Shown: one piece after another, positions 7,999 through 22,252 of the stretch
How the letters are laid out: every line of letters starts with the position of its first letter
How positions within the stretch are numbered: the stretch's first letter is position 1
DNA from: Solirubrobacterales bacterium
GTDB lineage: Bacteria > Actinomycetota > Thermoleophilia > Solirubrobacterales > 70-9
Direction: 5' to 3'
Length of the DNA stretch: 44,997 nt
NCBI GenBank assembly: GCA_021154855.1
Contig: JAJKHV010000099.1
Span: forward strand, 1 to 44,997
Program-made: the position numbers and the translations under genes
Notes under the pieces: generated by a model
Told to the model about the DNA's origin: nothing
What the model saw: only the letters and a program-made list of their open reading frames with translations
Database searches by the model: none

Positions 7999-8019
7999 CT
8001 GAGCCTCCTTGGGTTTTGG

Positions 8020-8107
8020 TCCCGCCTCGTGCGGGAGCCGGTGCGGCCCCGCCCCACGCCGAAGGCGTGGGAAAATCAAGGGGCAGGCCGGCTGCCGCGA
8101 CGGGCGC
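8020..8107 (-). promoter_or_regulatory. Leader inverted-repeat element A
   Basis: RBS-proximal hairpin TCCCGC-CTCGT-GCGGGA (8020-8036); AGCCGG/CCGGCT long-range pairing (8036-8041/8088-8093) with partial extension; apex CCCACGCC-GAA-GGCGTGGG (8053-8071). Confidence 0.7.
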
Positions 8108-8347: not shown

Positions 8348-10522
8348 TCAGCCGAGCGGGACCGTCGCTAGTTCGCTCTGCCTTCCATCCGCTGTGACCA
8401 GACGGCCGCTGACGACGATGCGCCCTTGGCCGCGTGGCATGGGAATACGCACGGCCCCTCGCCCATCCGTGGTTTTGAACGTGGCTCCGGTTGGGGGAAC
8501 GTTGGCCTGGCTCTTGGCAGCGGTAATGACAACCGCGCCCAACTTAGCTCGCAGGCCGTCAGCCCCGTATCTGACGAGCAGTTCGTCCCCTCGCCGCTGC
8601 ACCGTGAGGGTCGGCTTTGCCGGTCGCGTCGTGGGCTGCGTATCGCCGGATGAGGTCGACCGGCCCGAAAGCGAGGCCCTAGGCGAGCTTCCAATGTGGC
8701 AGGTTTCTGCTTCTTCGAGGAATTCAGAGGGGTCTTCCCACTTGTTCCCCTGTAGGCTCGGCGAGTCCGGACTACTGCCGGAATCACCCCACTTACCCGG
8801 CCATGAGACCCAACCCATCGAGCCTTCCATAGGCAGCACTTGTACCGGCACGGGCACTTCCCCATCGGTGACATCAAGCGGTTCGACGTCTTCGGAGTCA
8901 TCGAGGTAGGAAGCGTGCGACCCTCGAGCGACGTAGACATCGGGGGCGATGTTCCCGTAGTACCCAACCGACTCCTGCACATCCCCCCAGAGGCACGTCT
9001 CGGCCGTTTTATGTTGAGCGTAAGTAACGCTTGTTGGCTCGCCTGATTTGAGAAGCCCAAGCTGGATCATCTCCCAGTCGCCCTCGTGGTTGGCGGTCCC
9101 GCCCAGGAATGTGTCGTAGTAGTAGAAGAACCAATATTGGAGCCACCACATCCCGGCGTTGTACTTCACGCGCCCGTAGACCTTGCCGTAATAGTCCCCT
9201 CTGTTTAGAAGTACGTCTTGGTCTTCCGCGGCCGACACTTCCGAGTTGCCATGCTCACTCAGAACATCCCCAGGGATCACCGGTTGTTCGTTCGGATATG
9301 AGCTTTCGTCCGGCTGAAGGAAGGCAAGGCTGAGGTGCGGATTGCTCAGTTCCGGATTGGAATAAGCGAGCAGCATTTCAAAAGGGCTCGGACCTCGCAG
9401 GAGATTGGAGTCACTCGTTTTTCCGGTTTCGTAATAGAAGTCTGTGATGGTGTTCGCCGTCACCGTCGGGAATGTCTCTTGGCTGTCAAAGCGCATCTTC
9501 GGTGCGTATTTCATCAGCAACTGTTTTGCTTGCCCTTCCGATTCTGCCCCGAGTGTGATCGGTTCACCAGGAATCGCGGCAAAGGATGCAGGGCCTGTGT
9601 ATCCCGATTTGCTCGAATACGGTCCGGCTATGAATTCATCATTTTTGCCTTTGGAGTCCATTGATCGGAGTTCCCCAACGTCCCAACCTTCGACAGTCGC
9701 GTACCGGCCGTAACCAATGCGACCATCCGGGCGCCAATCCGGCACCTCGTCGCGGACCGAGTTGTTCGTGAGCGCTTCGACTTTGAGGGTTTTCAGGGTC
9801 ACCACATAGACCTCGGTGTCTGATTTTTCCAAGCCGGTGAATGCGATCTTTGAGCCGTCTGGGGAGAAAGTCGGCGTGAAGGCGAAGAGACCTTTGGGCG
9901 TCAGGCGTTCTGGACTGGTGCCGTTACGGTTGGCTATATAGAGCGCCGGCGCTTCCGCCCCGAGGGATTTACCCGACGGATCGGTGTAGGAGACGAAGGC
10001 GATCTTCGTGCCGTCGGGAGATATGGCTGGATCCTCCTGACCTCCCCAGGTGATGACTTTCGTCACGCTCCATTCGGGCTGTGATTGGACGGGACGCAAT
10101 TCCACGATTTGCCCTTCTCCGTACCCGGAAGCGAGAAGGCCCGTTCCATCGGGCGTCCAGGCGAGCCGCGGTGATTGATGCCACTCCGGTTCTTTTATCG
10201 TGAAGATTTTGTGAGGCCCGTGACCTTTGATATCCGTCACCGCGAGCGAGGCCGGCCAGCTTTCGCCGGGGACGGAGTCGAAAAAGGCGATGCGCTGACC
10301 GTCGGGGGCAAGCTCGGGATGTTGGCCTACGATCGGCAGTTCTTCCGGAGAGCTTCCTTCTTCTTGAACGAAGATCGCGCTTAGAGCGGATTCAGAGTCT
10401 TGCTCGTGCACCCAAGTCGATGCATGCAGCGTGGCCGGCCATGCAAACAGAGCGCCCGCCGCAGCAAGGAGTGCCACGAGCTTCCCCGCCTTAAATTTGT
10501 TGTGCACTGCGATTCGAGACAA
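8348..10522 (-). CDS. Secreted TolB/WD40-like (PD40) beta-propeller protein with Vps62/DUF946-like C-terminal region
   Basis: 724 aa; signal peptide; repeats ISPDGTKIAFVS, FSPDGSKIAFTG, LAPDGQRIAFFD; ANHEGDWEMIQLGL and VARGSHASYL. Confidence 0.8.
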   Translation of the reverse strand: MSRIAVHNKFKAGKLVALLAAAGALFAWPATLHASTWVHEQDSESALSAIFVQEEGSSPEELPIVGQHPELAPDGQRIAFFDSVPGESWPASLAVTDIKGHGPHKIFTIKEPEWHQSPRLAWTPDGTGLLASGYGEGQIVELRPVQSQPEWSVTKVITWGGQEDPAISPDGTKIAFVSYTDPSGKSLGAEAPALYIANRNGTSPERLTPKGLFAFTPTFSPDGSKIAFTGLEKSDTEVYVVTLKTLKVEALTNNSVRDEVPDWRPDGRIGYGRYATVEGWDVGELRSMDSKGKNDEFIAGPYSSKSGYTGPASFAAIPGEPITLGAESEGQAKQLLMKYAPKMRFDSQETFPTVTANTITDFYYETGKTSDSNLLRGPSPFEMLLAYSNPELSNPHLSLAFLQPDESSYPNEQPVIPGDVLSEHGNSEVSAAEDQDVLLNRGDYYGKVYGRVKYNAGMWWLQYWFFYYYDTFLGGTANHEGDWEMIQLGLLKSGEPTSVTYAQHKTAETCLWGDVQESVGYYGNIAPDVYVARGSHASYLDDSEDVEPLDVTDGEVPVPVQVLPMEGSMGWVSWPGKWGDSGSSPDSPSLQGNKWEDPSEFLEEAETCHIGSSPRASLSGRSTSSGDTQPTTRPAKPTLTVQRRGDELLVRYGADGLRAKLGAVVITAAKSQANVPPTGATFKTTDGRGAVRIPMPRGQGRIVVSGRLVTADGRQSELATVPLG

Positions 10523-10632: not shown

Positions 10633-13600
10633 TCAGCGGACGAGCGTTGGTGTTTCACGCTCAAGCCCTATTCGCTGCTTTTGACGGAGCCCGTGCTGAA
10701 GACGCCGAAGCTGAACGAGCGCTTCGTCGTGCTCTCGCCTGCGGTGCGGATCGCGGGGAGCGGTACCCAACGGCTCGCCTGTCCGAGAAGTTAGACGGCG
10801 ATGCTGGCGAACTTTGTAGATCAAGTCGATGCCCTCATTCCAGAGGTCGGCCATCCTCGGATCGGCCGGACGCGGGCCTAGGGCCTCAACGATCATCGTG
10901 GAAGGCCGGATCCTCTCGGCCGCGATGTGGCGGCGACGCTCATGTAGTAGCCGGTCCTCGACAAGTGTGAGCTCTGCCCGCTCGACACCGGTCAGGCCGG
11001 AGGGCCTACGGGCTTCGACTCGGACTTTTGCGGCGATGCCTTCCCGCTCCGCCTCGAGCGTGTGTATTTGATCCAGGATCAGACGCTCGACGCTTTGGAG
11101 GCGCGCAAGCTCACCTTCACCCTTCGGGCCTTCGGGGAGTTGGTTTTGCTTGTGCGCAAGGTCATTCAGTCGGGCGTGGGCTCCGGCTATTCGCTTGTCC
11201 AGCGAGTCAAGCCGCTCTCGCGCGGGCGAGCGCTGCTTGCCCGCGTCAAGCCGCTGCATCAGCTGCTCGCGCCGTGCCGAAAGCTCGATCTCGCTCAAGC
11301 CCTCGACCCGCTTCCGGGCGGCTATCTCGCTTGCGGCGAACTCACTTGCAACCCTCTCCGAGCCGCGTCGAATGTCGTGCGCGGCATCGGGCACCTCACG
11401 CTTGGCCGGTCCCAGGTCGGGATCAAGCCACGCGCTCGCGGCGACTCCATAAGCGGTGGTCTCTCCCCGAGCGCGGGACACGGCAACGGTGAAGTCCTCG
11501 CTGGCGATCCCAGAATCGAGCAGGGAAAAGGCCGAGTCGAAGGTCTTGGATTGCGTCGCGTAAGTGGTGAGTGCGTAGGCGTGTTGGATTGCGGGCTCGC
11601 CGCTGTCGGTGCGCTTTTGCAAATAGCCGAGGCCGGCGACGACAGCACGCTCATCGCCACCGATTCGGTGCAAGAGAAGGCGCTGCTCGCTGGCGTCGAT
11701 CCCTGCCACCTCCCACCGCTCCCGGTTGGAAACATCGGCTGTGTTCACCCGGGTCATCACTCGATCTCCGACCGCGAACTGCTGGCCGCCCACTTCGACG
11801 CTCGCCTCTCCGAGAGAGCCGTTTTCCGCAAGGAGGCTGCAGGCGGCTTCATTCAAGTCGGCGACGTCGCGGCGGCGGCGGGCGATCATCACCGAGTCCT
11901 CACCGGCAGCAAAGCGCCGGTGCCAGTCGAGGACCATCGCGGCCTTCACCTCATCCAAGGTGTCGCCAATGATGAGGCGGTCTTGTGCGCGAAAGAGGTC
12001 GAGCGCGTCTGAGCCACGACCTTCATGCGCCAGTTCGACAATGCGCCGGTCGACCGGGTTTTGCTGACGGCGGATTTCTGTGAGGACGATCGTCTCCACC
12101 TCGTTCGTCAAGTGCCCGTAAACACCGCCCGGGCCTACAGCGCCGATCTGCCTTGGGTCTCCGATGGCCACGAGCTTGCCTTCGCAGCGCTCGACGTACT
12201 CCACGACTGCGGCGAATTGAGGCGTCGGGGTAACCGATGACTCGTCCATGACGACGACGGTTCCGCGCGGAAGGGGCTCGATGCCTTTGGCTAGCGCCTC
12301 CTCGCAGCGGATGAGGAACGCGGTGATTGAGGTCGAGGGAATCCCGGCCTGGTCCTCCAGCTCGCCGGAAGCGCTGCGGGGAGTAGCGATGCCGAGGCCG
12401 TAGATCCCGCTCTCCGACCAGACCTCACGCGCCGCCTTGAGGGCGGTCGTCTTTCCCGATCCGGGCAGGGCGGCGACGGTGACGATCCGCTCGCCGCCGG
12501 TCGCCAGCCGCCGAACCATCTCCGCCTGCTCGTCGCCCAGGTAGTGATGGCGGGCAAGCACCGCAGCCAGCACCGACTTGTCAGCGACGGCGGCCCCCGC
12601 CGCCTCCCCCTCGCGTGCACTGCGGAGAACCTGCTGCTCCATCCGCCAGAGGCGAGGGGTCGTGAAGTAGCTCGTCGCGAGCGGTCCCTCGCCGTGGTGG
12701 ACCTCGACAACGCGGTCGCCCATCAAGAGCGAGTCGATGGCGGCCTCGAGCTGGCGCGCGTCGCTGCCTTCTCTCATTCGACTGGCGAGAGCGCAAAGGA
12801 GATCGCGACGGCAGAAGTGTGAGTGGGTCGCCTCCAGGTCCCCCAAGGCACCGTCGATCTCCGAGCCGGTCACCGCGCCCGGCTCGCGACCCGTCGTCCT
12901 GCTCACCATCTGCCCGATCGCGCCTTCGCTGAAATCGAACTCGTCGGCGCGAGCTCGCCAGTCGGCGCGCTGGGCATCGGGGTCGACGCCGTAGTCCTTG
13001 GCGTCGCGGGTGCGGTAGGCCGCCACTTCGGCGGCGGCGGCCGAGCTGGTGCCCCGCTCGGCCATCTCGGCGACGATCTCGCCTCGCCGCTGGCTGAAGT
13101 GCTCGATGAGATCGCGGGCGAAGCCGGCTAGATCGGCATAGCCGTTGACGACCTGCTGCCACTCCAAGCCGAGCTCTCGGGTGATGAAGGCGCGAAGGGC
13201 AGCCTGGTAGATGTGACCGGCCGTCTTCGCCTCGATGAGCAGCGGCGTCCGTCCCTTGGGGCTGGCGAGACTGAGCCACCGGCCATCAGAGAGGGCGCGG
13301 GTCATGTTGGCAGTGACCAGATGGCTGTGAAGCGCAATGTCGCCTGCGCGCGAGGAGCGGTGCAAGAAGCTCATCGAGATAAAGCCTTCGCCGGGCTCGA
13401 TTTCGCCGCCGCCGTAACCTCGACGCACAAAACAGGCGTGGCGTTCGAGATAGCCAAGCGCCTCGCCGATCGCGTAGTCGTGGGCTTGCAGGATCGTCGC
13501 CTGAACCTCTTTGGAGCCGATCGCCCAAAGCAGCGAGACCGACTTCGGCGCGCTGAAACGAATGTCGTAGCCGAGAATCGGCTCGACCTTTCGCTTCACG

Positions 13601-13854
13601 CCGGAGGCGTCGACGTAGGTCCGCGGCTTCGGCCTTTTGACCAGGACCTTCCCGGTCTTGGGGTGCTTGCCAGCGAGGATCGCGGTGTATTCGGCTCGGT
13701 CGACCTCGCCTGAAAGACCAAGCTCTTTGGCCAAGTCGCCCATCCATTGCCCAGGTGCCTCGCCGGGCTTCGTGTAGTAGTCGTCGCCTCCTTCTGCGAC
13801 GGCTTCGATCCAGTAGTTGGCGTTGCCTTTGCCGATCTTCGTCACTCCGACCAT
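10633..13854 (-). CDS. MobF-family (TrwC/TraI-like) conjugative relaxase-helicase
   Basis: MVGVTKIGKGNANYWIEAVAEGGDDYYTKPGEAPGQW N-terminus; HRSSRAGDIALHSHLVTAN metal-binding His motif; ALPGSGKTTALKAA Walker A; VVVMDESSV Walker B. Confidence 0.93.
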   Translation of the reverse strand: MVGVTKIGKGNANYWIEAVAEGGDDYYTKPGEAPGQWMGDLAKELGLSGEVDRAEYTAILAGKHPKTGKVLVKRPKPRTYVDASGVKRKVEPILGYDIRFSAPKSVSLLWAIGSKEVQATILQAHDYAIGEALGYLERHACFVRRGYGGGEIEPGEGFISMSFLHRSSRAGDIALHSHLVTANMTRALSDGRWLSLASPKGRTPLLIEAKTAGHIYQAALRAFITRELGLEWQQVVNGYADLAGFARDLIEHFSQRRGEIVAEMAERGTSSAAAAEVAAYRTRDAKDYGVDPDAQRADWRARADEFDFSEGAIGQMVSRTTGREPGAVTGSEIDGALGDLEATHSHFCRRDLLCALASRMREGSDARQLEAAIDSLLMGDRVVEVHHGEGPLATSYFTTPRLWRMEQQVLRSAREGEAAGAAVADKSVLAAVLARHHYLGDEQAEMVRRLATGGERIVTVAALPGSGKTTALKAAREVWSESGIYGLGIATPRSASGELEDQAGIPSTSITAFLIRCEEALAKGIEPLPRGTVVVMDESSVTPTPQFAAVVEYVERCEGKLVAIGDPRQIGAVGPGGVYGHLTNEVETIVLTEIRRQQNPVDRRIVELAHEGRGSDALDLFRAQDRLIIGDTLDEVKAAMVLDWHRRFAAGEDSVMIARRRRDVADLNEAACSLLAENGSLGEASVEVGGQQFAVGDRVMTRVNTADVSNRERWEVAGIDASEQRLLLHRIGGDERAVVAGLGYLQKRTDSGEPAIQHAYALTTYATQSKTFDSAFSLLDSGIASEDFTVAVSRARGETTAYGVAASAWLDPDLGPAKREVPDAAHDIRRGSERVASEFAASEIAARKRVEGLSEIELSARREQLMQRLDAGKQRSPARERLDSLDKRIAGAHARLNDLAHKQNQLPEGPKGEGELARLQSVERLILDQIHTLEAEREGIAAKVRVEARRPSGLTGVERAELTLVEDRLLHERRRHIAAERIRPSTMIVEALGPRPADPRMADLWNEGIDLIYKVRQHRRLTSRTGEPLGTAPRDPHRRREHDEALVQLRRLQHGLRQKQRIGLERETPTLVR

Positions 13855-13856
13855 CA

Positions 13857-13892
13857 CCTCCGTACTCCATTCGGAGGCCCGGTTTGCGTCAC
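13857..13892 (-). repeat. Bipartite upstream repeat, copy 2, in front of the relaxase
   Basis: GTTTGCGTCAC (13882-13892) and CCTCCGTACTCCAT (13857-13870), + strand view, same spacing as copy 1. Confidence 0.85.
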
Positions 13893-13899
13893 CCAGCAC

Positions 13900-14140
13900 T
13901 GGACAGTGCATAGTGTGTCGGGCTGTAGGGCTGTGGCTGTGAGGGCGGTCTAGAGCTGCCTCTGGCAGCTCTCTAGATCGGCTGGCTCTGCATAGCTGAT
14001 GACTCTCGTAGCCTGTCTGAGTCTCGCTCGTCTGGAACTAGATGGGCTCTGTCGTGGTGGCGCTGGCTAGCTATGCAGATGCCTCTGGGCGGTGCTTTGC
14101 TCGCCGCCAGGCGACGCAAAGGGCCGGCGCCGTTTGGCGC
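13900..14140. other. Candidate oriT region
   Basis: Adjacent to the relaxase 5' end; direct repeats GGGCTGT/GGGCTGT/GGCTGT (13920-13940); hairpin TCTAGAGCTGCC-TCT-GGCAGCTctCTAGA (13949-13977); inverted repeat TCTGCATAGCT/AGCTATGCAGA (13987-13997/14069-14079); GACTC/GAGTC (14001-14005/14019-14023); hairpin GCGCC-GTTT-GGCGC (14127-14140). Confidence 0.55.
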
Positions 14141-14158
14141 TCATGCGAACATCAGTTC

Positions 14159-15652: not shown

Positions 15653-15796
15653 GCCCCTCGGGGCTTCTTGCTTACTTGCGCCAGCCGAAAAAGCCCCGGA
15701 CATCCGAACCGCGCACCGAGCGAAGCGAGGGGAAGGGGCGAAGCCCCTTGCGCGGGGCGGTGCCGGGGCTAGGCTGAAAAGCAAGTAAGCAAGAAG
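15653..15796 (-). promoter_or_regulatory. Leader inverted-repeat element G, upstream of the SSB-like gene
   Basis: Perfect 16-bp CTTCTTGCTTACTTGC/GCAAGTAAGCAAGAAG (15664-15679/15781-15796); AGCCCCGG/CCGGGGCT (15692-15699/15763-15770); apex AAGGGGC-GAA-GCCCCTT (15733-15749); RBS-proximal GCCCC-TC-GGGGC. Confidence 0.8.
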
Positions 15797-15945
15797 CTGC
15801 GAGCGCTGAAGCTCATGACGAATGAATGGCCTTGCGAACTGAATGACCATCGGATGCACCGGCTATAAATTCTTCGCGACACTTACCGGGGCGGGTATTT
15901 GCGTCGCCACGCGCGTTGTGCCCGTGGTCATTGCGATAGCAGCAA

Positions 15946-15991: not shown

Positions 15992-16426
15992 CTAGAACGG
16001 GATGTCGTCGTCTCCGGCGCCCGCTCCCGCCATCGCGAACTCCCCGGCCTCGGCTTGTGCCGGCTCGGCAGCCTCCGTCGGCGCACTGTCCTTCGGGCTA
16101 CCGAGGAACTGAACGTCGCTGGCTAGCAGCTCGACCTTCTGACGTTTGCCGCTGCCGTCTTTTGCCTCCCACTCGCGCCAATCCAGACGGCCCTGGACGG
16201 CAACCCCGCTGCCCTTCTCAAGGTGCTCGGAGCAGGCGACGCCTCGTTTGTTCCAGACCTTGACGTCGAAGTAGTTGGGCTTGTCCTCCCACTCGCCGGT
16301 CTCACTGTTTTTCCGGCGCGTGTTCACCGCGACCCGCAGCTCGCACACTGAGGAGCCGCCTTGAAAGCTCGTCAGCTTCGGGTCCTTGGTTAGGTTGCCG
16401 GTGATGGCGAATACGTTGATGTTCAC
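15992..16426 (-). CDS. ssb: Single-stranded DNA-binding protein
   Basis: GTG start, AAAGGAG SD; NINVFAITGNLTKDPKLTSFQGGSSVCELRVAVN; DDDIPF acidic tip. Confidence 0.95.
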   Translation of the reverse strand: MNINVFAITGNLTKDPKLTSFQGGSSVCELRVAVNTRRKNSETGEWEDKPNYFDVKVWNKRGVACSEHLEKGSGVAVQGRLDWREWEAKDGSGKRQKVELLASDVQFLGSPKDSAPTEAAEPAQAEAGEFAMAGAGAGDDDIPF

Positions 16427-16462
16427 TTTGGTTCTCCTTTGAGAGGTGGTTCGATTGACGAG

Positions 16463-16560
16463 CCCAGGTAGGGCGCACGACCGAACTCGCGGAACCGAGC
16501 CGAAGGCGAGGGGAACCCCCTTTTGGGGGTTGAAGCGTGGGCGGCGTGTGCCAGCCTGGG
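16463..16560 (-). promoter_or_regulatory. Leader inverted-repeat element F, upstream of ssb (less canonical)
   Basis: CCCAGGTAGGGCGCAC/GTGTGCCAGCCTGGG imperfect arms (16463-16478/16546-16560); internal AACCCCCTTTTGGGGGTT hairpin (16514-16531); GCC-GAA-GGC core. Confidence 0.55.
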
Positions 16561-16600
16561 GTGAGGAAGTCGGACTGCCTCTCTGGAGATGCCTGTGGAC

Positions 16601-17554
16601 TTACGCTGCCGCCAGGGCCGGGATATCTGCTTCACCGCCACGCTCGTCCTGCGGAGGCTCGACCTCGAGCAGCGCATCCTCGATCCGCCTGGCTAGCCTG
16701 TCGATCAGCGCGGCGTAGCGCCCGACCTCATCGCCCTCACTCCAACCGGTCATGTAGGGAATCGAAGAACCAGAGGTGTCAAAACCCAATGAGGCGCAAA
16801 CGGTGAAGGCGACGCACTCGACCACGACCTCCTCCTGCGCGCGAGTCAGCTTCGGATCGTCTTTCTGGCTATCGATCACCACGAGGGCGTGGGCAAGCTC
16901 GTGGATCCCGGTTGCGATCTGGGCATTGGGCGAGAAGCCCTCCCTTACCTCTTCGACGGCGATCCACTCCTCGCCCCGGTGGCACAACCCCTCGGCGCGA
17001 CCGTCGATCGTCTCGACCCTGAAGGCGTAGCCGATAGAGCCGGCCAGTCGGCTCAGTGGGTCGAGAAGATGAGCAAGACCGTCGCCGGTGATTGGCTGGG
17101 ACGCCGGCGGCGCCAAGTCGGCTGGCCCTCCGGGGAACTCGGGCAACGGGTCGACCTGAGATCGGTCGAAGACCGCGACCAGGCGAAAGAAAGTCCGCGG
17201 CCTGTCGTGAGGGTCGCCGCCTTCTTTTTCCCACTGCTTGACCTTCTTCTTCGAGGGTGGGCACGGCGCCCAAATGCGAATTCCATGCTCTCCCTTTCGA
17301 ACCGAATAACCGAGCTCGAGCCAGCGCCGAAAGCCGGTGACGTAGCTCGCCTCGGGGCATTGCAGGGCGATCAGTACCTGGTTCCAGAAGCTGTAGCGAT
17401 GGAACCTGCGCCTGACCGTGAGCCAGCGCTGCCAGCCCTCGCTTGAGCGCAGCTCCTCGATCGCCTTCGCTGCAAGCTCGCGCTCGGCGGCGCGCTTTTC
17501 GGCGCGCTCCTCCTCGCTCAGCGTGCGTCGGCGAGAACTTCGTCTCTTGGCCAT
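16601..17554 (-). CDS. ArdC-like antirestriction / zincin metalloprotease-domain protein
   Basis: Start MAKRRSSRRR with GGAGG SD; W..WL..R..FHRYSFWNQVLIALQ, GFRRWLELGYSVRKGEHGIRIWAPCP, FRLVAVFDRSQ, IATGIHELAHALV (HExxH-type HELAH). Confidence 0.8.
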   Translation of the reverse strand: MAKRRSSRRRTLSEEERAEKRAAERELAAKAIEELRSSEGWQRWLTVRRRFHRYSFWNQVLIALQCPEASYVTGFRRWLELGYSVRKGEHGIRIWAPCPPSKKKVKQWEKEGGDPHDRPRTFFRLVAVFDRSQVDPLPEFPGGPADLAPPASQPITGDGLAHLLDPLSRLAGSIGYAFRVETIDGRAEGLCHRGEEWIAVEEVREGFSPNAQIATGIHELAHALVVIDSQKDDPKLTRAQEEVVVECVAFTVCASLGFDTSGSSIPYMTGWSEGDEVGRYAALIDRLARRIEDALLEVEPPQDERGGEADIPALAAA

Positions 17555-17573: not shown

Positions 17574-17647
17574 GCCCGCCGCGGTTGGGCGGGCTTTGCC
17601 TCCCGACGCACGGCGAAGCCGTGCCACAATCGGGAGGCAGCCCGCCC
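17574..17647 (-). promoter_or_regulatory. Leader inverted-repeat element B, upstream of the ArdC-like gene
   Basis: GGGCGGGCT/AGCCCGCCC (17587-17595/17639-17647); TGCCTCCCGA/TCGGGAGGCA (17597-17606/17630-17639); apex GCACGGC-GAA-GCCGTGC (17608-17624); RBS-proximal GCCCGCC-N7-GGCGGGC. Confidence 0.85.
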
Positions 17648-17703
17648 GGTTGCTTCTTAGAGCGGTCGCGGCCCAAAACTGTTCGACTCAGCTCGCCGGT
17701 CGT

Positions 17704-18246
17704 TCAGGCGACCTTCTCGACGCAGACGAGAGGGAACGGAACCGTCTTGCGCTGCGGCTTGCCGGTGGCCCGCTCGAGCCGGTCACGGTCTCCGGCGTCC
17801 AGTTCGACCTGAACCTTGTCGCCTTTGACCGCCACAACGCGACCGCGAGCGTTCATGTAGGTCCCCGGCGAGATCGTCGGGCCGACGGCGACGGTGTCGC
17901 CTTTGGCCAGGCCCTCCGTGCGGTTGACTCGCTTGGCTTCAGAGTCATTGAGGGCATTGCCGCGGCCGGTGACCCGCAGGCCGATTTTCGAGCCGTCCTC
18001 GTACTCGCCAAGGGCCTTGTACATCCACGTAGCTGCTTTGTAGAGCTCCCTGCCTGTGATGAACTCGTCGGTTCGGTTGCAAGCGTTGACCGCATCCAGC
18101 ACAGCCTTGTCGTCGGCCTCGGCGACAATCCCATGCGGAACCGCTTTGCCTGCGAGCGTTTCGAGTGTGCTGCCGCCCAGCCGGGGCAGGATCAGGATGG
18201 TCGTGGCCGTTGCCTTTTTGGCGCCTTCCCTCAGTAGGACCTTCAT
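17704..18246 (-). CDS. Hypothetical protein; N-terminal module shared with the adjacent gene, KOW/SH3-like C-terminus
   Basis: AAGGAG SD; MKVLLREGAKKATATTILILPRLGGSTLETLAGKAVPHGIVAEAD; C-terminal GRVVAVKGDKVQVEL. Confidence 0.7.
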   Translation of the reverse strand: MKVLLREGAKKATATTILILPRLGGSTLETLAGKAVPHGIVAEADDKAVLDAVNACNRTDEFITGRELYKAATWMYKALGEYEDGSKIGLRVTGRGNALNDSEAKRVNRTEGLAKGDTVAVGPTISPGTYMNARGRVVAVKGDKVQVELDAGDRDRLERATGKPQRKTVPFPLVCVEKVA

Positions 18247-18267
18247 CGGATCTCCTTGAGCTATGCG

Positions 18268-18353
18268 CTCCCGCCCTTTGCGGGAGCCGGTGAGCCCCCG
18301 CCCTGCACGCGAAGCGTGCGACCCTGGCGGGGCCGGCTCCCGCAAAGGGCGGG
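18268..18353 (-). promoter_or_regulatory. Leader inverted-repeat element C
   Basis: Perfect 21-bp CCCGCCCTTTGCGGGAGCCGG/CCGGCTCCCGCAAAGGGCGGG (18270-18290/18333-18353); CCCCGCC/GGCGGGG (18296-18302/18326-18332); apex GCACGC-GAA-GCGTGC (18305-18319). Confidence 0.9.
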
Positions 18354-18361
18354 GACTCCGG

Positions 18362-18952
18362 TCAGCCAGTCGGATTTGCGAGTGAACGAGTCCTGAGATC
18401 CGCCAACTCGCGGTTGTAGTCGTATAGCTGCGTCTTCAGCGCCCGTACGTCGGTGGCTCGGGCCTCGGGGCGCCGAGGCAACTCCTCGAGGCTCTGCGTG
18501 GTGGCGTCCCGCGCGTCGCCGAGTCGGCCGAGGCAGCAGGCGATCGAGCCGGAGTCGCCGCGCTCGTCGGCTTCCTCGTAGCGGCGACGCTCGTGCGGTG
18601 TCAGGGTGGGTCCGTTGAGTCGCTTCGACTTGGGGAGTTCCAAGACGCAGCCGCTATGGGTGACGTGCTGGACAAGCTCTGAACCGAGCTCATACGCGGC
18701 GAGAATCCCGGCTATCCACTCGACTTCTTCGGTGTTGACGATTCTGACCGCGGCAGCCGGGGCGTGGTGCCGCTCCGCCACCCTGTCGATGGCCTCCGCG
18801 ACCGTCCAGTGGTCCGCCTCCGCGACGATGCCTCCGGGCAGTCCGCCTTCGCCTGCAAGCGTTGTAAGCACGGTCTCCCTCAGCGAGGTCCCAACGGCGA
18901 GAATGGTCTCGGCCGTCGCCCGCCCGGCGCCCTTCTTCAGTAGGACCCTCAT
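18362..18952 (-). CDS. Hypothetical protein, paralogous N-terminal module to 17704-18246
   Basis: MRVLLKKGAGRATAETILAVGTSLRETVLTTLAGEGGLPGGIVAEAD aligns to the neighbour; ATGA overlap with upstream ORF. Confidence 0.7.
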   Translation of the reverse strand: MRVLLKKGAGRATAETILAVGTSLRETVLTTLAGEGGLPGGIVAEADHWTVAEAIDRVAERHHAPAAAVRIVNTEEVEWIAGILAAYELGSELVQHVTHSGCVLELPKSKRLNGPTLTPHERRRYEEADERGDSGSIACCLGRLGDARDATTQSLEELPRRPEARATDVRALKTQLYDYNRELADLRTRSLANPTG

Positions 18953-19155
18953 CGTCGCCCTCGCCTCGCGACTCGCGCATCCGCTTGTAGCTCGTGCAGG
19001 CCGGGCGGCCCACCCGGCAAGACGCCCAGGTCTCGCAGTTGGTCCTCGGCCTTTCGACGGGCCTCGATGGGATCGACGGCCACGACGAACACCCGTGAGG
19101 AGCCGATCTCGACCTCCCACCAAAGCTCGGCGATAAGTTCGGGTGCGCGTTTCAT
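18949..19155 (-). CDS. Small hypothetical protein (68 aa)
   Basis: MKRAPELIAELWWEVEIGSSRVFVVAVDPIEARRKAEDQL; overlaps both neighbours by 4 nt (operon-like). Confidence 0.6.
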   Translation of the reverse strand: MKRAPELIAELWWEVEIGSSRVFVVAVDPIEARRKAEDQLRDLGVLPGGPPGLHELQADARVARRGRR

Positions 19156-19613
19156 GGGGCGCCCTCGACCCCAAGCGAACGCATCACGCGCCGGAGGGAG
19201 AACGGGCTTAGAACCGACAGCTCCCGACAGCAGGAGGTGTACGCCTCGCGACAGGTCGCATCCTCACCCCGGCGGGGATGAAGTTCGCGAATTTGATCCT
19301 CGAGGAGCTTGACTTCTCGGTCATAACCGGAGGTCAGCATGGTCGCGTGAGCCCCATAACCACCTATCTCCTCAGGCCGAATGGCAGCGGCGTCTCCACT
19401 CCTCACCGCGAGGTCTTCACTCACCTGACGGTCTTCTCGCCGGCGGTCAGCCGCGCTCGTGGGCGAGACCGCCAAGAGACGCTTGATTTCCGCCGATGCC
19501 TGACCGAACGTCTTCGGCCAGGCAAACGACTTGCCTGTTTTGATTGCCAGGTCCTTGAGGTAGTCGAGCTGCCCTGGTGTCGGCTTTCTGATGTGATGCT
19601 GTGAGTTGGTCAT
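19152..19613 (-). CDS. Small plasmid-type protein with 'TPxQLxYLxxLAxxTGxSF' N-terminal motif (DUF3072-like)
   Basis: KPTPGQLDYLKDLAIKTGKSFAWPKTFGQASAEIKRLL. Confidence 0.6.
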   Translation of the reverse strand: MTNSQHHIRKPTPGQLDYLKDLAIKTGKSFAWPKTFGQASAEIKRLLAVSPTSAADRRREDRQVSEDLAVRSGDAAAIRPEEIGGYGAHATMLTSGYDREVKLLEDQIRELHPRRGEDATCREAYTSCCRELSVLSPFSLRRVMRSLGVEGAP

Positions 19614-19682
19614 GGCCCAGCCAAAGCAGACCGGAGGAGGCTGGCGAAGCCGGTCGGGGGAGGTCTGCTAGGCGTGTGGGCC
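19614..19682 (-). promoter_or_regulatory. Leader inverted-repeat element I
   Basis: GGCCCA/TGGGCC (19614-19619/19677-19682); AGCAGACC/GGTCTGCT (19625-19632/19662-19669); apex GGCTGGC-GAA-GCCGGTC (19639-19655, two wobbles). Confidence 0.7.
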
Positions 19683-19766
19683 GGGACCAACTCACAGCCC
19701 AGAGCAGTGCGTGAAAACCACACCGGGGGAAAGGCCCCGCTAAGAGCCTTCCCCCGGTAGAGCGCT

Positions 19767-21257
19767 TTACTTCTTGCTGATACGCCGACGGCGCGGCCGT
19801 GCCGCCTTGATGTCTGGGGCAAGAAGCTTTTCGGCCTCTCGATTACCCAAGAACCAGTGGATCCGCTTGGACTGCGGCAGCTGCTCCTGGTCAACCACAA
19901 CCGCCGCGACGATTGCCTCCGCCATCACCTCGTTTACCTGGGCTTCAGTGGAGGCCTCGTTGACCCGGCGGCGCAGCTCCTCCCTGCACTGCTCGGCATC
20001 GGACCAGATGACTTTCTTGCGCTCCTTGCCCGACTTCAACTCTTTGACTTCGATGTCTCGGAGCGTCGGCAGGGTGAGCCGCAGGCCGGACCCGGCGAGC
20101 TGGGGATTGTCGTCAATGAAAAGCAGCGCGATCGCCTTGGCTCGAGCGAGACCGTGCTGCTTACGGCGCGCGCCGGTGCGGCCCGTCAGCAGTTTGCCGG
20201 CCACTTCTTCATTGCCGATCTCGGCGATTTCTTTCCGCGCCTTCGCTTCCTCGCGCTTGGCCGCGCGCTCGTCTTTCTCGGACTCACCGAGCTCTTTGCG
20301 ATGCCCTTTCCAGGCTTCCTCTTCCTCGACCTTCTTCTTGGCTGCCTTCTCGAGCTGCCCAAGACCTCGATCGAAGAGGTCGGCTGCGACGGTAACGTCG
20401 GTGATGAACGCCATGGTCGAAGCCATGCCGCGGCGCTCGGTGCGGTGCTCGACCAAGCAACCCAGCGCCCGCGCGGCGTCGATCTCGGCGTCGCCGAAGC
20501 TCAAGCCCGGATCGTCGGACTTATAGGAGCTGATCGCGTGGAGTCGATCGGCCAGTTCGCGGCGCTTTTTGCCCTTCGCGATGACGCTGACCGGAACCCG
20601 CCGGGCAGAGATCATCGTCGGCTTGTTGTTGAAGTGGGCCTCGGCCGTAGCGGCGAAGATGTCGCCGAAGCGGTCGATGAAGTAGCGGCCCTTGTAGCCC
20701 TGGCGCTTGGCCAGCTCGCAGATGCATTCCGCGACGCGAGGTGAGACGACGGCGATGTCGCGCAGCAGGCGCTCGCCTTCGATTGGCACAAATCCCTCGG
20801 CAATGTAGCGCTGGACGCCCTTGGGGAGATCCAGTAGGCGCAGCCGTTCACTGACCCACGGGACGGACTTGCCGACCTTCCCGGCGATCGCCTTGTTGGT
20901 TTCGAGGTTGAGCTCTCCCGCCAGTGCCCGCAGGCCAAGCGCGGCGTCAATCGGGTCGAGTTCCTCGCGGTGGATGTTCTCGACCAGGGAGCTGAGGTGT
21001 GCGTTGCCCTCACTGACGGTGATCGGAACCTCTTTCAGCCCCCCTCGCTGGGCCGCGGCGAAGCGACGATGTCCCGCAACCAGCGTGAAGCGGCCGTTTT
21101 TGCCGGGCCGCACTGAAAGAGGCTGAACAACGCCGGCAGTACCAAGGCTGGCCGCGAGCCCCTCAAGCTCTTTGTCGTCCATGTGGGTGCGAGCGTTGAA
21201 GCCCTCCTCGACGTCGATCTTGGAAATCTCGACGCATGGTGTCTTTAGGTCGCTCAT
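19767..21257 (-). CDS. ParB/Spo0J-like protein with a long charged C-terminal extension
   Basis: ATG with AAAGGAG SD 8 nt upstream; LAASLGTAGVVQPLSVRP, LVAGHRRFAAAQRGG, LVENIHREELDPIDAALGLRAL, HTH KSVPWVSERLRLLDLP. Confidence 0.88.
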   Translation of the reverse strand: MSDLKTPCVEISKIDVEEGFNARTHMDDKELEGLAASLGTAGVVQPLSVRPGKNGRFTLVAGHRRFAAAQRGGLKEVPITVSEGNAHLSSLVENIHREELDPIDAALGLRALAGELNLETNKAIAGKVGKSVPWVSERLRLLDLPKGVQRYIAEGFVPIEGERLLRDIAVVSPRVAECICELAKRQGYKGRYFIDRFGDIFAATAEAHFNNKPTMISARRVPVSVIAKGKKRRELADRLHAISSYKSDDPGLSFGDAEIDAARALGCLVEHRTERRGMASTMAFITDVTVAADLFDRGLGQLEKAAKKKVEEEEAWKGHRKELGESEKDERAAKREEAKARKEIAEIGNEEVAGKLLTGRTGARRKQHGLARAKAIALLFIDDNPQLAGSGLRLTLPTLRDIEVKELKSGKERKKVIWSDAEQCREELRRRVNEASTEAQVNEVMAEAIVAAVVVDQEQLPQSKRIHWFLGNREAEKLLAPDIKAARPRRRRISKK

Positions 21258-21282
21258 CTTGAGCACTCCTTTGTCCTTCGCC

Positions 21283-21361
21283 CCCGCCCGTTGCGGGAGC
21301 CGGTGCCCCGGAGCCGCACGCGGAGCGTGCGATCATCGGAGGGGTGCTGGCTCCCGCAACG
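21283..21361 (-). promoter_or_regulatory. Leader inverted-repeat element D, upstream of the ParB-like gene
   Basis: Long arms CGTTGCGGGAGCCGGTGCCCC/GGGGTGCTGGCTCCCGCAACG (18 WC + 3 wobble; 21289-21309/21341-21361); apex CGCACGC-GGA-GCGTGCG (21315-21331). Confidence 0.9.
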
Positions 21362-21437
21362 CGGCCAGGGGTGCCGCGTCTATCCGTCGCCGTCGCGGAC
21401 GGTGCGACCACACAGGCGTAGCTCGCCTTCGACGAAC

Positions 21438-22037
21438 TCACAGAACGCCACGCAGTCCCACTTGCCGTCGGCGTTCAGGTATTCGGCGATCCGGTCCAGC
21501 CGACGCTCGGCTTGGCCGAAGCGGGGCCGCAAGCTCGTTGGCCCTGCTCAAGGTCTCCGCCATGATCCGGAGGGTGTAGGCGATCGGATCCTCTCCTCGA
21601 TCCTGCTCGAGGTTCACAGCCGAGCCGATGAGTACGACTCCCCCACCGATTTCGACGGCGGGCAGCGGCTGCGGATTCGCGATCGACATCGGGTAGACCG
21701 AGATGTAGGCCGATTCGAACTCGCAGGTAACGATCTCGGCGCCGAGGGCGGACTCAAAGAGGCCATGCAACTCGTCGGCGTCGCTGAACGGCGTTATCGG
21801 TCTAATTGCGCCTTCGGGATCATTCAGCACCACCGCAGCTGCATCCCGGTCAAGGCCAAAGAGGGGATGTGGAAGTACGCCCTTCCCGAGGTCCGATTCG
21901 GCGTCCGCGACGGTCACAAGCGCCGAGTCGCGGTTGAAGCTAGCGCTGCAGTTTCCACATCGCCGCGCGCCTGGGGACTTGCGTGGGTCTGGAACAACTT
22001 CCGGGCTGCAACAGTCAGGGCATCTCAGCTCCATCAT
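21438..22037 (-). CDS. Zinc-ribbon-containing hypothetical protein
   Basis: MMELRCPDCCSPEVVPDPRKSPGARRCGNCSASF (CxxC...CxxC); AAAGGAG SD. Confidence 0.65.
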   Translation of the reverse strand: MMELRCPDCCSPEVVPDPRKSPGARRCGNCSASFNRDSALVTVADAESDLGKGVLPHPLFGLDRDAAAVVLNDPEGAIRPITPFSDADELHGLFESALGAEIVTCEFESAYISVYPMSIANPQPLPAVEIGGGVVLIGSAVNLEQDRGEDPIAYTLRIMAETLSRANELAAPLRPSRASAGPDRRIPERRRQVGLRGVL

Positions 22038-22056
22038 CAGTCTCCTTTTGCTGTGC

Positions 22057-22138
22057 CCTCGCCGAGCGCGAGAGCCGATGCCCCGAACCCGCACGCGGAG
22101 CGTGCGATCATCAAGGGGCATCGGTTCTGAAAGCGAGG
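22057..22138 (-). promoter_or_regulatory. Leader inverted-repeat element E
   Basis: AGAGCCGATGCCCC/GGGGCATCGGTTCT (22071-22084/22115-22128, one wobble); CCTCGC/GCGAGG (22057-22062/22133-22138); apex GCACGC-GGA-GCGTGC (22091-22105); shares GCACGCGGAGCGTGCGATCATC with element D. Confidence 0.88.
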
Positions 22139-22252
22139 CGAGACCTCGCGCCTACTGCTATCTGGCCAGAACGCCCGTTTTGCGACCTTTTGCGACGTAC
22201 GTGCAGCCAGCAAGGCTTCTGGCCATCTTTGACAGCCACGAGGCCACTGCGA

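Follow-up and report, generated by a model that had tools for sequence, protein, structure and literature searches.

What do the folded leaders in front of the genes of this mobile element do, and in which strand do they fold? The 44,997-nucleotide stretch of Solirubrobacterales DNA analyzed here (the window) is a conjugative element, encoding a TrwC relaxase with helicase, a coupling protein, a single-strand binding protein (SSB), ArdC and a ParB-domain protein. A preliminary description of five leaders, elements A to E, held that the arm near the ribosome binding site is itself a hairpin, and that the same bases pair with a distal arm to make a long rod, as expected of a switch in an RNA leader or between single- and double-stranded DNA. 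All five arm hairpins are present exactly as described, at 8020-8036 (A), 18268-18286 (C), 21283-21297 (D) and 22058-22072 (E) with 5-nt loops and at 17574-17594 (B) with a 7-nt loop, A and B lying outside the interval 18268-22138 to which the description was assigned. The pairing with the distal arm, over 80 to 100 nt, is equally real, with complementary bases at 21/21 positions in C, 18/21 in D and 13/14 in the inner part of E. Three further elements absent from that description, F, G and H, share the general plan. Each of A to E adjoins, on the upstream side, the Shine-Dalgarno (SD) sequence of a minus-strand gene. All eight carry an apical hairpin with a GNA triloop on the plus strand (8/8), and the elements are among the strongest folds of the window, above chance; an unfiltered scan for rods by enclosing pairs proved too permissive.

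The competition between the two folds is uneven. The same bases do form either structure, and the rod dominates: it is the minimum-energy fold of plus-strand A to E as RNA, and partition-function folding shows that forcing the arm hairpin costs 3.5 to 16.9 kcal/mol with RNA parameters and 1.1 to 11.0 kcal/mol with DNA parameters. Plus-strand E alone comes close to balance as single-stranded DNA (ssDNA), near a three-hairpin form. The rod is the resting form of the complete strand, and A to E find no support as a thermodynamic two-state RNA switch. In predicted transcripts that start inside the rod, the local arm hairpin is the minimum-energy fold in all five elements, because the distal arm is missing there. 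Probably each fold is formed by a molecule of its own, the rod by the incoming ssDNA and the arm hairpin by an RNA started inside the rod.

These energies bear directly on an RNA leader switch, in which the 5' end of the mRNA would toggle between long rod and arm hairpin and so control access to the SD. Both folds exist, the elements adjoin an SD, and the arm hairpin is indeed the best fold of an internally started transcript, all as such a switch would have it. In the mRNA strand, however, the rod is favored by 3.5 to 11 kcal/mol, so the two states are not of comparable stability, and the SD lies outside the rod in every element but H. The mRNA strand also folds worse than the template strand, and in it the conserved loops read UNC and the G.A pairs turn into mismatched pyrimidines. 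The bases that are both conserved and unpaired correspond to a plus-strand -10 box. Rfam gave no match at the gathering score and nothing credible at E<=5, placing the elements in no known structured RNA family. We regard a leader switch as very unlikely.

Comparison of the two strands points the same way. Folding with RNA parameters gives the plus strand, which templates the downstream genes, greater stability in 44 of 53 elements (mean 6.6 kcal/mol), versus 52% of flanking control windows; the most extreme bias is in the ssb leader, element G (-95.8 kcal/mol for plus, -61.4 for minus). Stems of at least 6 bp closed by a GNA loop and lying 35 to 80 nt before an SD-preceded start occur 35 times on the template strand, about 10 of them at loci fetched with a GNA pattern, versus 4 times on the other strand, while other loop types tested at the same position occur 1 to 4 times. 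In relatives the loops are GNA or GNNA (GACA, GCCA and GGTA among the latter) with any middle base, which fits the rules for stable DNA loops better than the GNRA rule of RNA. It is on the plus strand that selection for folding acts. What survives of the proposed ssDNA/dsDNA switch is a likely effect of strand conformation on expression; the strand that folds is the template and not the mRNA.

Elements A to E, which we group as class I, each present on the plus strand a GNA-loop hairpin followed by an unpaired hexamer, in the arrangement TGn-nAnnnT. Element A (8018-8104) is a rod with an apical GAA hairpin and TGG-GAAAAT (8068-8076), ahead of the SD and start (7998) of an 87-aa minus-strand gene, and B (17574-17655), likewise a rod with a GAA hairpin, carries TGC-CACAAT (17622-17630) and is the leader of the minus-strand ArdC-like gene (16601-17554, start at about 17554; Pfam PF08401). 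Element C (18266-18356) has perfect 21-bp arms, a GAA hairpin and TGC-GACCCT (18317-18325), and leads a minus-strand gene of 180 aa starting at 18246. Two rods with GGA hairpins share the box TGC-GATCAT: D (21279-21368; box 21328-21336) before the minus-strand gene for the ParB-domain protein (19767-21266; Pfam PF02195 and PF17762), and E (22056-22140; box 22103-22111), an inner rod with arm hairpins, before a gene of about 200 aa. The neighboring genes at 17704-18246 and 18362-18954 have similar beginnings, M(K/R)VLL...GA...AT.ILxLP, and the first of them gives a weak KOW-like match (E 0.047).

Aligned, the class I copies share T31, G32, A35 and T39, with the stem ending in TG; outside the stem two columns are invariant, the A and, four columns on, the T. 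In the numbering of a promoter these are A-11 and T-7, invariant in all ten copies compared and the very bases that are flipped into sigma in open complexes (PMC4496690). DNA folding leaves hexamer positions 2 to 5 mostly unpaired, A-11 having an unpaired probability of 0.71 to 1.00 in 10/10 copies. Judged by sequence pattern, TG plus hexamer reads as an extended -10 box, with the consensus SAnnMT in the nontemplate sense. Counting against a promoter box, here and in the second class described below, most copies have a -10 hexamer that departs widely from consensus, such as GACCCT in C and CAGCCT in G. Within the same genome, further class I copies occur on contigs C28, C33, C75, C82 and C174, and others are found elsewhere in the order. 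They precede parB, ardC-like and other genes, and a search for hairpin plus hexamer found 23 distinct places, 20 of which lie 45 to 61 nt before an SD-preceded start. One copy, of E on contig C75 (L037, G000:C75, 4420-4560), is followed right after its SD by an inverted internal piece of the E gene (window plus strand at about 21845), a rearrangement or an assembly join. Of two looser patterns, GGAACCGAGCN{3,12}GCGAGGGGA was not found in viral contigs, and ACCGAGCN{3,12}GCGAGGGG was set aside, its matches in genomes being mostly chance occurrences outside conjugative contigs. A scan of genome contigs with the ParB protein as query returned one distant match.

A second architecture, class II, is represented in the window by F (15657-15803), leader of the 15278 gene, and G (about 16440-16585), leader of the minus-strand ssb gene (15992-16426; Pfam PF00436), both on the plus strand. 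Here an outer stem encloses a hairpin of the form ACC-GA-GC-GN(N)A-GC-GA-GG and then a second hairpin, forming a three-way junction that is followed by TTG; in F the first loop is GAA, as is that of the second hairpin. The boxes are TTGCGC (15748-15753), 16 nt and TAGGCT (15770-15775) in F, and TTGAAG (16530-16535), 16 nt and CAGCCT (16552-16557) in G. Covariation in this fold is evident from 15 seed sequences, in which 78% of cells pair versus 60% when shuffled and 36 to 55% in slid controls, and in which changes on both sides of a pair number 46 versus 19 (reached in 0/500 shuffles). A covariance model has 48 hits, spread over 28 of the order's 232 genomes, and, across 396 genomes of the phylum, finds no relative beyond the window's own genome; the family therefore looks restricted to this bacterial class. 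A search for WhiB, intended to support an actinobacterial host, was negative.

The spacing of the class II boxes is also constrained. In 22 of 42 elements an nAnnnT hexamer follows TTGnnn at a distance of exactly 16 nt, compared with a mean of 0.8 and a maximum of 4 in 1,000 shuffles, with no case at 4 to 15 or 22 to 26 nt; five elements have none at 16 to 20 nt. Many loci are related, so these are not independent observations, and for some of the loci the pattern used to fetch them included part of the motif; when the elements are clustered at 80% identity, the exact spacing is kept in 15 of 30 clusters. Beside the window's own TTGCGC-N16-TAGGCT, examples include TTGCGC-N16-TAAAAT, TTGCGC-N16-TACAAT and TTGACA-N17-CACGAT. 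Averaged over 38 elements, the modeled unpaired probability is 0.15 at -13, 0.40 at -12 and 0.80 at -11, a predicted jump that falls at the edge of a transcription bubble.

Such palindromes, repeated before several genes in a set that includes a ParB gene, could be duplex or cruciform sites at which a regulator encoded by the plasmid, such as the ParB-domain protein, corepresses all the leading genes. The two classes share no duplex sequence, however, the arms diverge while their pairing is kept, and the conserved bases are single-stranded and strand specific, all of which makes a regulator site highly improbable. Still less probable, to the point of being negligible, is that mobile repeats (REP, MITE or attC-like) came to lie between genes by chance. 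There are several similar copies in one element, the leaders of D and E being 81% alike, but they are on the template strand at fixed distances before SDs, and homologous copies precede homologous genes in other contigs. In the order as a whole the gene-leader relatives mostly keep a fixed distance before ssb, parB, ardC-like and DUF3072-like genes; for class II these are mostly ssb or DUF3072-like genes (recognized from N-terminal sequence), with SD and start usually 57 to 63 nt from the edge of the core. In attC, the core sites RYYYAAC ... GTTRRRY bound the palindrome; the arms of L038 and D begin with GTT and end with AAC, the opposite arrangement. We rejected the attC, REP and MITE readings on end motifs, strand and position.

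Element H (19598-19698, plus strand) fits less well. It is a long rod topped by a GAA hairpin and covers the start codon of its gene (19152-19613), and whereas the folds of classes I and II rebuild promoter boxes in the orientation of the gene, H has no clear -10, TAGGCG being a weak candidate. A full-length mRNA would bury the start of this gene in a 22-bp stem; an internally started RNA would not.

An oriT-like site indicates which strand is transferred. Directly upstream of the minus-strand relaxase gene (10633-13911; TrwC type with helicase domain, Pfam PF08751, E 3.8e-74) lies a candidate oriT nic region on the plus strand (13896-13921), GCACTG-GA-CAGTGC-ATAG-TGTGTCGG. A hairpin followed by ATAGTGTGTCGG stands beside the TrwC start in the window and in G000:C28, G002 and G041:C124, the hairpin sequence differing, and a variant occurs in G034. 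In R388 the nic hairpin is 5' of the cleavage site (PMC4176350), and this similarity of layout suggests that cleavage would take place within the candidate. With the hairpin first, as in R388, the plus strand would be transferred, its 5' end rightwards, and the region from 14 to 22 kb, with ssb, ardC and parB, would thus be the leading region and the elements would lie on the transferred strand (T-strand). Genes point towards the relaxase on every checked contig where a gene-leader element and a relaxase occur together, and F carries a similar leading set (anti-restriction, SSB and ParB-type genes) read towards its transfer genes. The elements accordingly lie in the leading region, upstream of genes templated by the T-strand, with the positional exception of A, which is on the other side of the relaxase and would enter late in transfer. 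Between the oriT candidate and the first leading gene, 14035-14145 also forms a strong plus-biased fold (-61 versus -40 kcal/mol). Homologous relaxase, ssb, ParB and leaders are found on G000:C28 (L036) and G000:C82 (L035) in the same genome bin, which must therefore contain one or more related elements or strain variants.

From these sequence features we consider it probable that the elements are ssDNA promoters of the Frpo kind, which would mimic an opened promoter and be active only in single-stranded DNA. In the scheme that we infer, which covers how polymerase is recruited, where and when RNA starts and how the promoter is silenced, the plus strand would enter the recipient oriT side first, and each leader would fold into a rod. 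There the RNA polymerase holoenzyme of the host would meet a promoter in which the correct segment is open from the outset. In class I, a short GNA-loop hairpin would keep the TG of the extended -10 in duplex with the following hexamer looped out; in class II, the three-way junction would present a TTGnnn -35, with a looped-out nAnnnT 16 to 20 nt on. RNA would start inside the rod, since the 5' arm of the rod is the template, exit through the proximal arm and read the SD and then the gene. The boxes are found on the 3' arm and point away from the apex; in no other direction would the 5' arm serve as template and the transcript lead into the gene. By this route ssb, ardC, parB and other establishment genes would be transcribed before second-strand synthesis; in double-stranded DNA the rod would be gone and the promoter off, and in the transcript, which lacks the distal arm, the proximal arm would fold as the local hairpin first described.

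Folding of the T-strand would equally be expected of single-strand initiation sites, at which a primase or polymerase primes the complementary strand and which are not gene promoters. F's Frpo is reported to do both, going by the title of Masai and Arai 1997 as cited in PMC11541004, and an intergenic class II subfamily (GGGCTGTCACCGAGC...) carries TTGACN followed by CAnnAT or similar with no adjoining SD gene. This subfamily, seen in other genomes of the order (L079, L080, L119, L120, L126, L127), is contained in a conserved intergenic palindrome of about 130 nt, CCCCTTCCCGG ... CCGGGAAGGGG. One element per gene at a fixed SD distance argues against priming as the general role, as do promoter boxes and a spacing that a primase does not require, and we judge it unlikely; the intergenic subfamily itself may not promote a gene but act as a single-strand origin or primer site. 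A more specific version of the promoter reading has, we think, slightly better than an even chance: that these are a lineage-specific family of premelted ssDNA promoters, mimicking a fork junction and placed once per gene across leading regions, whose core has been reused in the intergenic subfamily as a single-strand origin or primer site.

So far the ssDNA promoters understood in detail come from a few plasmids, mainly F-type, of gut bacteria, and a 2024 survey either took five known sequences and sought their relatives or scanned selected islands for consensus boxes (PMC11541004). If the promoter reading is true, at least one further lineage has arrived at this principle, and with another fold. 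Its layout makes the logic plain: A-11 and T-7 are displayed in a loop with duplex immediately upstream, and an extended -10 takes the place of the -35. It would also provide a searchable signature for early-entry, hence anti-defense, genes in unannotated conjugative elements and a compact test system for promoter opening.

Several known systems share parts of this design. The promoters of the N4 virion RNA polymerase are small DNA hairpins in a single strand, as proposed here, but are read by a phage polymerase; Pfam found no N4-type phage polymerase gene in the window. The c-GNA-g loops with any apical N recall d(GCGAAGC) mini-hairpins and GNA triloops, known mainly as isolated stability motifs, whereas here the loop belongs to a promoter-like fold. 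In phages, BLAST with class II found only a 40-bp match (E 4e-3), at 9458-9497 of MT836049.1, an unannotated 'Bacteriophage sp.' record.

The closest precedent is Frpo1/2 of F, silent once the complementary strand is made (PMC9849209). Searched by blastn against 72,556 plasmid records including F, one class II and one intergenic-subfamily element found no match, and the elements are therefore classed as working like Frpo and not as members of its sequence family; a strict -35/-10 scan of the region upstream of F's ssb did not recover its boxes and so gave no positive control. Frpo1 and Frpo2 of F and ssi of ColIb-P9 likewise lie in the leading region, upstream of ssb and ParB-type genes (PMC9849209, PMC11541004), with T-strand-templated genes, a long stem-loop, reconstituted promoter boxes and several similar copies per plasmid. 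The present elements differ in their GC-rich host, in a looped-out -10 and one element per gene, in the GNA-loop hairpin of class I with an extended -10 and no -35, and in the three-way junction of class II with tandem G.A motifs. Open-complex and fork-junction DNA shows the same geometry, duplex to about -12 and single-stranded from A-11, with T-7 unpaired or weakly paired (PMC4496690); unlike in the open complex, the shape is here built into a single folded strand.
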